Source of the DNA: Chloroflexota bacterium
Lineage (GTDB): Bacteria; Chloroflexota; Anaerolineae; Promineifilales; Promineifilaceae
DNA length: 64,000 nt
Direction: 5' to 3'
Assembly (NCBI GenBank): GCA_024275635.1
Contig: JAJRYT010000151.1
Span: forward strand, 124,001 to 188,000
Below, one piece after another: positions 12,803-16,847 of this stretch (positions are counted from its first letter, which is position 1; the number at the start of each line of letters is the position of its first letter). A program made the translations under genes and the position numbers. A model generated the notes under the pieces. That model was not told where the DNA came from. It was given only the letters and a program-made list of their open reading frames with translations, and did no database searches.

Positions 12803-13483
12803 ATGACAACCATTGTTCTGGTGCGACACGGCGAAAATGAGTGGGTGAAGAAGGGCCGCCTGGCCGGGTGGATTCCGGGCGTTCACTTGAATGAGAAGGG
12901 GCAGCAGCAGGCTGAGGCGGCGGCGCAGCGGTTGGCCGAACTGCCGGTAACGGCCGTTTACAGCAGTCCCGTCACCCGCTGCCTGGAAACGGCCGCCTAC
13001 ATTGTCCGACCGCATAATTTGGACATCATCCAATTAGAAACAGTCGGCGAAGTCCGCTACGGGAAGTGGGAAGGTAAAAAAATCAAAAAACTGGCGAAAA
13101 AGAAGCCCTGGTTTACGGTACAGTTTTTCCCCAGTCGGTTTCGATTCCCGGAAGGCGAAGCCCTGCATGAAGTTCAACTGCGAGCCACCCAGGCATTAGA
13201 AGCGCTCAGCCAACAGCGCCCGGAAGATGTGATTGTTGTTGTTTCCCACGCCGATCTCATTAAACTTGTCCTGGCCTATTACCTGGGTGTTCATATTGAT
13301 CTCTTCCAGCGGTTGACCATTTACCCGGCTTCTATCAGCGTCATCATGCTGGCGCAATCGGGCGGCGTGCGCGTTTTGCGTATGAATGATGATGGCCCGC
13401 TGCAGTTTCCGGCCAGGACTGATAAGAAAAAGGGGACAAAAAAGCGGCGGGAGACGGCCGTTACCGAACCATCTGCCGAATGA
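12803..13483 (+). CDS. Histidine phosphatase (phosphoglycerate mutase-like), first gene of a conserved trio
   Basis: A phosphoesterase of the histidine phosphatase superfamily. The 226-residue protein shows LVRHGEN at the N-terminus (phospho-accepting His), YSSPVTRCLETA (second Arg), GEVRYGKWEGK (catalytic acid) and VSHADLIKLVL (second His), so it should be active. The C-terminus is Lys/Arg-rich. The two genes downstream encode a DUF3090 protein and an SCO1664-type kinase-like protein. This same order is known to me from actinobacteria, where the enzyme is called an MSMEG_4193-type phosphomutase. The physiological substrate is unknown. Translation probably starts from a leaderless mRNA. Confidence 0.88.
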   Translation: MTTIVLVRHGENEWVKKGRLAGWIPGVHLNEKGQQQAEAAAQRLAELPVTAVYSSPVTRCLETAAYIVRPHNLDIIQLETVGEVRYGKWEGKKIKKLAKKKPWFTVQFFPSRFRFPEGEALHEVQLRATQALEALSQQRPEDVIVVVSHADLIKLVLAYYLGVHIDLFQRLTIYPASISVIMLAQSGGVRVLRMNDDGPLQFPARTDKKKGTKKRRETAVTEPSAE

Positions 13484-13516
13484 CGAAACAATGACACATG
13501 AAGGAAAATCACACCT

Positions 13517-14035
13517 ATGGCTCGCCATATTGAATTAAATCCGGTATCCCATCTGACTATTGGCACAGTTGGCGCCCCTGGAACACGGGTCTTTTACTTG
13601 CAAGGCAGCCGGGGGACGCAGATCGTCTCATTGACGATGGAAAAAGAACAAGCCCGGTTATTAGCTGGTAGTTTCGAGACGTTGCTGACTGAATTAGCCG
13701 AAAAATACCCGCCGGATACCCGCGAAGCACAGGAAGATCCGATGTGGACGGACATGCGCTTACGAGAACCCGTCGAGGCGCTGTTTCGGATTGGCAACAT
13801 CGGGTTAGGCTTTAATGAAGAGACAAATCAGATCGTCCTGGTAGCTTATGAATTAGTGGATGAAGGCGAGGAACCAAACGTCGTTAGCTTTTGGATATCA
13901 CGTTTCCAGGTGCAAGCGCTCATTAAACATACGATGGAAGTTATCAGCGCCGGCCGTCCGATTTGTGGCAACTGCGGTCAACCCATCGACGCGGAAGGAC
14001 ATTTTTGCCCGAATCGAAACGGACATAGCCACTGA
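13517..14035 (+). CDS. DUF3090 family protein
   Basis: A 172-residue soluble protein of unknown function. It shows the conserved N-terminus (VFYLQGSRGTQIVSLTMEKEQ), the central block FRIGNIGLGFNEETNQIVL and a C-terminal zinc-ribbon-like knuckle CGNCGQPIDAEGHFCPNRNGH. These match DUF3090, described in actinobacteria and Chloroflexota and nearly always beside a histidine phosphatase and an SCO1664-type protein. It sits 33 bases after the phosphatase and 16 bases before the kinase-like gene, so the three are probably cotranscribed. The family could be an adaptor or substrate for the two flanking enzymes (inference). Confidence 0.88.
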   Translation: MARHIELNPVSHLTIGTVGAPGTRVFYLQGSRGTQIVSLTMEKEQARLLAGSFETLLTELAEKYPPDTREAQEDPMWTDMRLREPVEALFRIGNIGLGFNEETNQIVLVAYELVDEGEEPNVVSFWISRFQVQALIKHTMEVISAGRPICGNCGQPIDAEGHFCPNRNGHSH

Positions 14036-14051
14036 TTTAGACATTATCACC

Positions 14052-14807
14052 ATGAGCAGGCCCGGTACAAGCGACATTCTAAATTTGTTGCGAACAGGTA
14101 GGATTGAATTAGAGGGATTGCTGCCCTGGAGTTCCAATTACTCCTTCCTGGTGCGCGTATACGGCCCATTGGCGGGCCAGCCGGAACAGGCTATGATTGC
14201 CGTTTATAAACCGAGACAGGGAGAACGGCCGTTATGGGATTTCCCCCAGGGAACATTATGCCAGCGTGAAGTGGCCGCCTTTCTGATCAGCGCCGCGCTG
14301 GGCTGGGATTTAATTCCGCCCACCGTCTTACGCCAGGGGCCACAGGGCATAGGCTCCGTACAACAGTTCATTGCCCACGATCCCGAATGTCATTATTTCA
14401 CCTTTGAGGGCAATAAAACCTTTCGGCGAGCACTCCAGAAAATTGCCCTGGTAGACATTATCTGCAACAATGCAGACCGTAAAGGCGGGCATGTTTTACT
14501 CCAGGAGGCCGAAAACGCATCCCAGGCCGACCGGCTGTGGGCCATTGATCACGGCATTTGTTTTCACAGTGAATATAAACTACGCACGGTCATCTGGGAA
14601 TTTGCCGGGACGGCTATCCCCGCCGATTTGCTGGCCGATTTGGCTGCTTTACAATCCAAGATGCGGTCACAGCTTTACCCCGAACTACAAGAATTATTGA
14701 GTAAGACTGAATTACTAGGCCTGGAAAACCGATTAGATCGTATAATACAAAGGCAAACATTTATTAAGCCTGGGCCGGGGCGTCATTATCCCTGGCCCCC
14801 TGTATAG
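14052..14807 (+). CDS. SCO1664-family PI3/PI4-kinase-like protein
   Basis: The 251-residue protein has a kinase-like layout: AVYKPRQGERPLWDFPQG contains the nucleotide-binding Lys, CQREVAAFLISAALGWDLIPPT the C-helix region, NADRKGGHVLL the catalytic-loop equivalent (Asp, Lys), and AIDHGICFH the metal-binding Asp. This pattern is shared by phosphatidylinositol-kinase-like and HipA-like folds. The bacterial substrate is not known. I chose ATG 14052, 16 bases after DUF3090, because homology begins there; the frame is open further upstream over the DUF3090 gene. Next to a phosphatase, it suggests a modification/demodification pair. Confidence 0.82.
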   Translation: MSRPGTSDILNLLRTGRIELEGLLPWSSNYSFLVRVYGPLAGQPEQAMIAVYKPRQGERPLWDFPQGTLCQREVAAFLISAALGWDLIPPTVLRQGPQGIGSVQQFIAHDPECHYFTFEGNKTFRRALQKIALVDIICNNADRKGGHVLLQEAENASQADRLWAIDHGICFHSEYKLRTVIWEFAGTAIPADLLADLAALQSKMRSQLYPELQELLSKTELLGLENRLDRIIQRQTFIKPGPGRHYPWPPV

Positions 14808-14820
14808 CGGATTATAAACC

Positions 14821-16023
14821 ATGTCCCATAAAATCCTTGCTGTTGATGATCATCCAGAAACCCTCGATATTGTCGTGAAGACATTACAACATCATGGCTA
14901 CGAAGTGGTTAGTTCGTTGTCTCCTGTTGAAGGATTACAGTTAGCCCAGGATGAATTGCCCGACCTGGCGCTCCTGGACGTAAATATGCCGGAGATGGAT
15001 GGCCTGGAAGTATGCCGCCGAATGCGCGCTATTCCCAAACTTGCCAACATGCCAGTCATTATGTTTACGGCCGAGGATGAACCGTATCAAAAACTGGCTG
15101 GCTTTGACGCCGGGGCGGATGATTACCTGACCAAACCGACAGACCCGGATGAAATGATCGCCCGGATCGAAGGACTCTTGGGCGAAGTTAAAGAGTCTGA
15201 AGAAGAACCGGAAGCAGAAGGTCAGGCGACTCCGGAGGGATTGTTTTATACTGCGCCTGATAAAGGGGGGGTAACGAAGGTAGCTGCGCCGCCGGAAGGC
15301 TGCATGATAGCTGTGTTGGGCGTAAGGGGCGGGGCTGGGGCTACCTTAACAGCCATCAATTTAGCGGCCAGCATTGCCCGGATGAGCCGTCCCTGCACGT
15401 TAGTAGATATGGATATGCAGCAAGGGCATATCTCTCTCTATTTGAACCGCCATATTACCGGCAGTATTAATACATTAGCGGATATTCCCGCCGAGGATAT
15501 TGGTAAATGGCTGCCGCAACAGGCAGTTGAATTAAGCCAGCATTTACAGTTGTTATTGGCGCATCCAAATCAAGACGGCCGTTTCCCCCACCTCTCCGCG
15601 TCACAAACAGCCGTCATCCTTGATACGCTTATACAATCCGGCCAAAGCGTCGTGGTGGATATGGGCCGCGAACAATCCGACGCCCATCGTCTGATTTTGG
15701 AACGGGCCGACCAAGCGCTTGTTTGCCTTTCCCCGGAGCGCATTGCTCTATCAGGCGCCAAACACCTTCTGAGCCAATACCGAAAAAACCTGGCGCCATT
15801 CACCACAGTAAACGCCATCATCTTCGATGTGGGCGGCCAGATGGTTTTGCCGCGAAAAGCCGTCGAAACTTATTTAGAGCATTCGCTCCAGGCTGTCATT
15901 GCCATCTCCCCTAAAGAACTCACACAGGCTGTCAACAAAGGCGCGATACTTGTTGGAACCTATGCGCAGGGCCAAACAGCCAAACAGTTTTACCAGTTAG
16001 CCAGACAGCTTGTCAAAAAATAA
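14821..16023 (+). CDS. Response-regulator receiver fused to a MinD/CpaE-like ATPase
   Basis: The 400-residue protein begins with a CheY-type receiver (about 1-122): DDHPE acidic pair, phospho-acceptor in LLDVNMPEMDG, and Lys in YLTKPTD. A linker rich in Glu follows, then a MinD/ParA-like domain (about 160-400) starting ILGVRGGAGAT. The P-loop is deviant: the signature lysine and the Walker lysine of KGGxGKT are replaced by Arg and Ala. Receiver-MinD fusions are typical of CpaE/TadZ proteins, which place pilus machines at the cell pole and often have odd P-loops. No tad/cpa pilus genes are in the window. It lies 13 bases after the kinase-like gene and may belong to the same operon. Confidence 0.82.
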   Translation: MSHKILAVDDHPETLDIVVKTLQHHGYEVVSSLSPVEGLQLAQDELPDLALLDVNMPEMDGLEVCRRMRAIPKLANMPVIMFTAEDEPYQKLAGFDAGADDYLTKPTDPDEMIARIEGLLGEVKESEEEPEAEGQATPEGLFYTAPDKGGVTKVAAPPEGCMIAVLGVRGGAGATLTAINLAASIARMSRPCTLVDMDMQQGHISLYLNRHITGSINTLADIPAEDIGKWLPQQAVELSQHLQLLLAHPNQDGRFPHLSASQTAVILDTLIQSGQSVVVDMGREQSDAHRLILERADQALVCLSPERIALSGAKHLLSQYRKNLAPFTTVNAIIFDVGGQMVLPRKAVETYLEHSLQAVIAISPKELTQAVNKGAILVGTYAQGQTAKQFYQLARQLVKK

Positions 16024-16085
16024 GAAGGGTGTAAATATACACAAATTTGAAAATCACATAGGTTGTCCAGACAAAAGGTTTATCG

Positions 16086-16847
16086 GTGACAGAAATTGAC
16101 AGCTTGATTGTACAGGCCACCAAACTTCTCAAACAATCTAACCATACAGTGGCCTTGACCGGGGCCGGTATTAGTACGCCATCAGGCATCCCGGATTTTC
16201 GCAGCCGGGATTCGGGGCTTTGGACAAAATATGACCCGATGCAAGTGGCTTCTATCCAGGGCTTTAAGCAAAATCCGCAAGATTTTTACGATTGGCTCCA
16301 TCCTTTGCTCAAGCGTACATTAACTGCAAAGCCTAACGCGGCTCATCAAGCGTTGGCGCAATTAGAATCTTTTGGCCCGCTTAAATCGGTAATTACCCAA
16401 AATATTGACACACTACATACCCAGGCCGGGTCGAAAGTTATTTACGAAGTACATGGCCACATGCGTGAAGTTACCTGCTTGCGCTGCTATGAGATTTATG
16501 ATGCTGCGGTAGTTTTCGATGATTTCATGGCGACTGGGACCGTCCCCATTTGTCCTGCGTGTGGGGGTGTTCTCAAACCCAATGTCATTTTATTTGGCGA
16601 GCTGCTGCCGGTCATGGTTTTGAATAAAGCCAGGCAGCAATCTAGAGAGTGTGACTTGATGCTAGTGGTCGGATCCTCATTGGTAGTAGCTCCTGCCGGG
16701 GATTTGCCCTTACTGGCCAGACAGTCTGGCGCGCGTTTGATTATTGTTACGTTGAGTGAAACCCATTTAGATGACCTGGCTGATGTTGTGATTCATGCCG
16801 ATGTGGTTGATGTGCTGCCCCAATTGGCCCGGCCGTTTTTACCGTGA
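16086..16847 (+). CDS. cobB: Sir2-family NAD-dependent protein deacylase
   Basis: Removes acyl groups from protein lysines using NAD. The 253-residue protein shows ALTGAGISTPSGIPDFRS (NAD binding), TQNIDTLHTQAG, the catalytic His in YEVHGHMREV, two zinc-binding pairs (CLRC and CPAC), and VGSSLVVAPAG. Length is normal for bacterial sirtuins. The start is a GTG at 16086. It sits between the CpaE-like regulator and a histidine kinase on the same strand, 62 bases after the first and 21 before the second. Confidence 0.92.
   Translation: MTEIDSLIVQATKLLKQSNHTVALTGAGISTPSGIPDFRSRDSGLWTKYDPMQVASIQGFKQNPQDFYDWLHPLLKRTLTAKPNAAHQALAQLESFGPLKSVITQNIDTLHTQAGSKVIYEVHGHMREVTCLRCYEIYDAAVVFDDFMATGTVPICPACGGVLKPNVILFGELLPVMVLNKARQQSRECDLMLVVGSSLVVAPAGDLPLLARQSGARLIIVTLSETHLDDLADVVIHADVVDVLPQLARPFLP

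Follow-up and report, generated by a model that had tools for sequence, protein, structure and literature searches.

A conserved phosphatase, DUF3090 and kinase-family gene trio in Chloroflexota and Actinomycetota, and its possible role as a phosphorylation switch

What do a histidine phosphatase, a DUF3090 protein and a kinase-like protein do when their genes lie side by side, and do they belong to one pathway? We addressed this question for a window of 64,000 nucleotides (the whole stretch of DNA analysed) from a Chloroflexota genome of 5.7 Mb in 253 contigs. An earlier note on this DNA had placed the three genes together, and they were indeed found as three open reading frames on the + strand, each scoring above the curated cut-off of its family. 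The features are as follows.

12803..13483, + strand: histidine phosphatase, branch 1, MSMEG_4193 family (TIGR03848), 226 aa; open reading frame and profile scores
13517..14035, + strand: DUF3090/TIGR03847 protein, 172 aa, with a predicted two-repeat PUR-alpha-like fold and a C-terminal zinc motif
Residues about 9-148 of the DUF3090 protein: PUR-alpha-like region in the predicted model
13964..14008, + strand: CxxC...HxC codons of DUF3090 (C150, C153, H162, C164); sequence and conservation
14052..14807, + strand: SCO1664-family (TIGR03843) protein, 251 aa, PI4K2/FAM20-type kinase domain
14208..14210, + strand: kinase Lys53 codon, predicted ATP-binding Lys in YKP, 58/58 conserved
14475..14477, + strand: kinase Asp142 codon, predicted catalytic Asp in NNADRKxGH, 58/58 conserved
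14547..14549, + strand: kinase Asp166 codon, predicted metal-binding Asp in IDHG, DFG-like, 58/58 conserved

The genes and their linkage

Gaps of 33 and 16 bases separate the phosphatase from DUF3090 and DUF3090 from the kinase, respectively. The most probable start of the kinase is 14052; an in-frame ATG upstream, at 13860, falls within DUF3090. The phosphatase scored 222.7 bits against TIGR03848 (cut-off 203.85), the DUF3090 protein 160 against TIGR03847 (cut-off 117.25) and the kinase 258.5 against TIGR03843 (cut-off 172.4). Pfam models matched all three: His_Phos_1 the phosphatase, DUF3090 the second protein (149.4 vs 27) and PI3_PI4_kinase the third (38.4 bits, gathering score 27.1). The gene set is already in the family databases. 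The phosphatase has its complete catalytic set, R8, H9, R59, E83 and H149 (RH...R...E...H), and the four further histidine phosphatases in the genome all scored 84.4 bits or less. The kinase-family gene is present in a single copy.

Conservation of the locus was surveyed in GTDB genomes, using 80 listed loci centred on the kinase out of 591 relatives found. Alignments were made from 20 of the 67 kinase-bearing genomes (A1), from DUF3090 of the window and 71 of 78 loci (A2, 72 rows) and from the kinase of the window and 57 of the 80 loci (A3, 58 rows). DUF3090 lay upstream of the kinase on the same strand in 78/80 listed loci, a few with an intervening gene or gap (e.g. L084, L129; about 5.6 kb in L131), and the phosphatase was present in 59/80. 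Where at least 2.5 kb of upstream sequence was available (n = 63), 47 loci had phosphatase and DUF3090 and 16 had DUF3090 only. All 27 of 27 Actinomycetota regions in one set (L199-L225) carried the full trio; 28 such regions were taken, their 27 source genomes being picked for long contigs among the 68 that have DUF3090 and the kinase. The order is therefore conserved in distant bacteria, as the earlier note had maintained.

Among 149 Actinomycetota, DUF3090 and the kinase occurred in an identical set of 68 genomes (Fisher p 4e-44, kinship ignored). Among 121 Chloroflexota, the kinase was found in 67 genomes and DUF3090 in 80, with both in 63, kinase only in 4, DUF3090 only in 17 and neither in 37 (p 1e-13, kinship ignored), and all 18 of the 18 genomes with a phosphatase above the TIGR03848 cut-off had DUF3090 and kinase. 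In 45/63 Chloroflexota genomes having both, no more than 2.5 kb separated the two genes, and in 5 of these 45 DUF3090 lay downstream of the kinase. Adjacency kept in swapped order suggests that the linkage outlived rearrangement.

It is extremely unlikely that the genes are chance neighbours, held together by vertical inheritance only. The pair was not adjacent in 18/63 Chloroflexota genomes, as might be expected of such neighbours, although some of these cases are near contig ends (four regions from the 18 genomes, L235-L238, were examined). Set against this are the identical presence and absence across 149 genomes, the linkage kept in swapped order, the two fusions and the replacement of the phosphatase. 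Linkage of the trio genes is far above chance, and co-occurrence and conserved order together strongly support the view that they form one functional unit in Chloroflexota and Actinomycetota.

The unit does not appear to extend further. In the window, the trio is followed at 14821-16847 by a receiver plus ParA-like ATPase gene and then a SIR2 gene. The CpaE-like receiver fusion remarked upon in the earlier note is thus present, but such a gene adjoined the trio in only 2/71 testable loci and so lies outside the unit. In L067 and L069 the receiver gene comes directly after the kinase, and in L068 the SIR2 gene does. The locus survey led us to reject the receiver, SIR2 and HutI neighbours as system parts. 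The remaining conserved neighbours were lineage-specific only, and several survey rows were antisense shadow ORFs. Named by eye, a homoserine-dehydrogenase-like gene came after the kinase in 14/80 listed loci (L067-L146), and a RarA-like AAA ATPase upstream of it in 8/80.

In collections of mobile elements the trio was found in only two plasmid records and one phage record, which gives no sign of a mobile-element system. The phage record, L239 (MT835969.1), entered as 'Bacteriophage sp.' from human faeces, is 14.9 kb long, unverified and unannotated. It has the complete trio, with DUF3090 lying some 2.5 kb downstream of the phosphatase, and may be a bacterial contig deposited under a phage name. 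Another record, L240 (NZ_LR134462.1), a Tsukamurella 'plasmid 20' with the trio, mshC, PAC2 and metH, looks chromosomal.

Class of the kinase and predicted fold of DUF3090

The kinase-like Lys, catalytic Asp and DFG-like Asp that the earlier note had read in the third protein hold up across the family: K53, D142 and D166, equated with kinase residues by motif position rather than coordinates, are invariant in 58/58 sequences, together with S28, N29, Y52, P54, E73, D135, N139, R143-K144 and G146-H147. A PDB search with the single sequence gave no credible match, and the SCO1664 profile matched FAM20A (4e-4) and PI4K2-beta (7e-4), with weaker matches to FAM20B and other PI4Ks; the FAM20 match spans both kinase lobes. 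Of 20 family members, 15 matched Pfam PI3_PI4_kinase and 4 matched HipA_2.

For the predicted model (pLDDT 95.9, pTM 0.92), the top matches were PI4K2 structures, with Z 19.0-20.2 over 223-230 residues at 16-18% identity, the best being a PI4K2-beta alignment (Z 20.2, 226 residues, 3.6 A) that covers both lobes. FAM20 proteins followed with Z 14.4-16.8, then CtkA at about 14, HipA at 10.5 and PI3-kinases at about 9. The trio kinase thus resembles animal lipid and secretory-pathway kinases. The likeness to type II PI 4-kinases is one of kinase fold; the SCO1664 protein has only 251 aa, carries His for the catalytic-loop Asn and does not have the CCPCC motif, a feature of type II PI 4-kinases. 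FAM20A, FAM20B and FAM20C are alike in the two-lobe profile match and a Z of 14-17. In contrast to FAM20 kinases, inspection by eye revealed no signs of secretion in the trio proteins, and we know of no DUF3090 or histidine phosphatase partner of a FAM20 kinase. The bacterial kinases HipA and CtkA (Z 10-15) belong to the same superfamily, but unlike HipA the trio kinase has no HipB-type antitoxin among its conserved neighbours.

One residue departs from expectation. The PI4K2 catalytic loop usually has an Asn metal ligand, and in 58/58 kinases of this family His147 stands in its place (DRKxGH). This replacement might point to a SelO-like AMP transferase or a pseudokinase. We consider either very unlikely, however, as 58/58 sequences retain the Lys, the two Asp and Glu73, and the top structural matches are phosphotransferases; the AMPylation step that the earlier note had offered as an option is disfavoured on the same structural grounds. 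The natural reading of His147 is variation within an active kinase. Together, the PI4K2/FAM20 fold match and the invariant Lys53, Asp142 and Asp166 suggest that the SCO1664-family protein is likely an active kinase.

For DUF3090, sequence searches of the PDB were uninformative. The single sequence returned hits at E 0.003 to designed armadillo repeats, all of them a single stretch of 21 residues, and the profile an S-layer protein (E 0.045) and a dehydrogenase (1.9), none of them credible. The predicted model (pLDDT 91, pTM 0.83) matched repeats I-II of PUR-alpha in five entries, with Z 9.7-10.2, ahead of an unrelated protein (6.7) and Whirly and MRP proteins (5.2-6.0). Foldseek placed the same PUR proteins first, but at E 0.018, so the similarity is a fold lead and not proof. 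An internal repeat in DUF3090 is weak (hhalign probability 52%, with EKxQ and T/RxQ motifs in register). PUR domains are built of two beta-beta-beta-beta-alpha repeats, and a two-repeat PUR-alpha-like fold is put forward as a lead from the model.

DUF3090 also differs from PUR-alpha. The proteins are acidic (median pI 4.7-5.3), they bear an extra C-terminal zinc motif, and the KNR motif, which contacts DNA in PUR-alpha (PMC4764581, as far as the available text goes), is mostly absent: searched as KxNxR anywhere in the sequence, it was found in 7/72 rows. Acidic pI and rarity of KxNxR count against nucleic-acid binding. The zinc knuckle seen by the earlier note is present here (C150, C153, H162, C164), but the ligands are absent in 13/72 DUF3090 rows, indicating that the motif is optional. 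Zinc-less rows include L073, L076, L086 and L093. Most retain a short GR...NG[HR] end; G146-R147 and the NG near the C-terminus remain in zinc-less proteins.

The earlier note had also suggested DUF3090 as a target of modification. On this view, phosphorylation, possibly of Thr14, would switch a PUR-like nucleic-acid-binding protein. The PUR/Whirly-type fold of the model favours this, as does the occurrence of Thr14 in 75/99 kinase-linked proteins vs 0/21 kinase-less or unlinked ones, a contrast that ignores kinship. Thr14 is, however, missing in 24/99 linked proteins, where it is often Val, and the signs against nucleic-acid binding apply here too. The alignment contained no invariant Ser, Thr or Tyr, and only Thr14 tracked kinase linkage. 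We regard DUF3090 as an improbable substrate, with Thr14 the only candidate site that shows any signal.

Partial sets, fusions and a substitute phosphatase

A phosphatase-DUF3090 fusion was found in two loci, L123 and L071. The former keeps the zinc motif. In the latter (L071:8278-9901) the fused DUF3090-like domain does not have the zinc tail, and a separate full-length DUF3090 gene directly follows. Phosphatase and kinase occurred without DUF3090 in L226 and L114, the pair in L226 (7823-9263) being a second one in the Actinomycetota genome G138. Corynebacterium glutamicum, a control genome, gave matches to the kinase and phosphatase families and no DUF3090 match.

The 17 Chloroflexota with DUF3090 but no kinase were of two kinds. 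Five of the genomes belong to a single family group, f12 (L179, L182, L188, L191, L193), and in 5/5 the DUF3090 ORF is overlapped at its 3' end by the ORF of a Cys-based DSP/PTP phosphatase. Three of the five proteins were scanned and matched PTP-SAK, Tc-R-P and CDKN3 models, and the CX5R signature was intact in all five, as CMGGVGR. Upstream of DUF3090, where two loci were scanned, L182 has an HTH-TPR gene; the gene there in L191 is also HTH, its TPR match falling below threshold. The remaining 12 genomes without the kinase had no trio partner and no relative of the f12 DSP in the stretch beside DUF3090. That 17 of 80 DUF3090-bearing Chloroflexota are without the kinase implies that DUF3090 has kinase-independent work.

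DUF3090 is found in company with either enzyme, as a fusion with one of them and beside a substitute phosphatase, a pattern that fits a switch built around it. We propose, with a confidence slightly below even, that the trio is one reversible phosphorylation switch, with the SCO1664 kinase and an opposing phosphatase sharing DUF3090 as partner. Operon and order, co-occurrence, fusions and phosphatase replacement are the observed basis of this proposal, alongside the predicted kinase fold with its residues and the model fold of DUF3090. The SCO1664 protein, as a kinase of PI4K2/FAM20 type, would use ATP to put the phosphate on, and the histidine phosphatase (apparently a DSP-type enzyme in one Chloroflexota group) would take the phosphate off. 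DUF3090, usually as a zinc-bearing PUR-like domain, would serve as adaptor or hub, targeting both enzymes, or as effector, reading out the phosphorylated state. We infer that the kinase is active, that the enzymes oppose each other, that a physical complex forms and that the substrate is a protein, not a lipid or sugar. Reversible phosphorylation, as raised in the earlier note, is the best reading, and it is strengthened by the fusions and the swap to another phosphatase class. Against the switch stand the Chloroflexota with DUF3090 alone, including the 12 in which kinase, histidine phosphatase and DSP were all missing from its surroundings, as well as the non-adjacent pairs and the 16/63 loci where no phosphatase was found although the upstream sequence reached 2.5 kb or more.

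Mycothiol, inositol and the meaning of the trio

M. tuberculosis presumably carries all three genes as Rv2135c-Rv2134c-Rv2133c, with Rv2135c the orthologue of the trio phosphatase; we take SCO1664 to be the Streptomyces kinase and MSMEG_4192 to be a DUF3090 gene. The latter turns up in a dibucaine transposon screen and in the ClpC1 interactome, going by the accessible portions of those reports. According to the available part of its description (PMC3866925), Rv2135c is a tetrameric acid phosphatase with no mutase activity. It was weak on the general substrates pNPP, PEP, fructose-6-phosphate and glycerol-1-phosphate and inactive on 3-phosphoglycerate, ADP and glucose-6-phosphate, and phosphoproteins are not among the substrates listed there. 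That it is a phosphatase and no mutase speaks for the switch; its weakness on general substrates and the makeup of that list speak against it.

The target may instead be a small molecule. A kinase-phosphatase cycle on a lipid or other small molecule (a phosphoinositide, inositol sugar, mycothiol or cell-envelope precursor), with DUF3090 as accessory subunit, would suit a kinase whose top structural match is the lipid kinase PI4K2 and which resembles FAM20B, a sugar kinase (5xom). Chandra and Chater described the proximity of the kinase gene to MSH genes as invariable (PMC4255298, in the portion available), and mshC lay within about 1 kb of it in 10 of the 11 Actinomycetota with MshC above cut-off, all 11 of which have kinase and DUF3090. 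Inositol-1-phosphate synthase, moreover, was present in 113/121 Chloroflexota, including the window's genome. These links did not hold generally. Only 11/68 trio-bearing Actinomycetota passed the MshC cut-off, 16 of the other 57 having weaker MshC-like hits (391-446 bits). The synthase was not positively associated with the kinase (60/67 with vs 53/54 without), it is missing from two trio-bearing genomes rated 99-100% complete (G012, G024), and no metabolic neighbour was common across lineages. On balance, a small-molecule cycle seems rather unlikely.

Mycothiol was rejected as the general role of the trio, MshC passing its cut-off in 11/149 Actinomycetota and kinase plus DUF3090 being present in 68/149. 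The actinobacterial TIGR03848/TIGR03847/TIGR03843 set has the same families in the same order as the window trio, and an annotated Tsukamurella example has mshC and PAC2 nearby. In contrast to that mshC-linked set, the trio is widespread in Chloroflexota, and its tie to mycothiol genes is most plausibly a local feature of Actinomycetota. We conclude that the trio is no mycothiol module and, with no positive association in 121 Chloroflexota, probably not an inositol module either.

In a literature search that covered subscription journals thinly, few papers named trio genes; in the text available, none was found that assigns a function to DUF3090 or the kinase gene, or that describes such a phosphorylation module. 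The present analysis adds a class for the kinase, a fold lead for DUF3090, the exchange of phosphatase type, the fusions and a separation of the trio from mycothiol, to which the literature had tied the kinase gene; the question of function now lies elsewhere. More speculatively, and with appreciable doubt, the trio may represent an ancient switch common to Chloroflexota and Actinomycetota, combining a PI4K2/FAM20-type kinase, interchangeable phosphatases (histidine or Cys-based DSP) and a PUR-fold, zinc-bearing hub. Now that the kinase has a class, the phosphatase a likely opposing role and DUF3090 a predicted fold, the function of the trio becomes directly testable.
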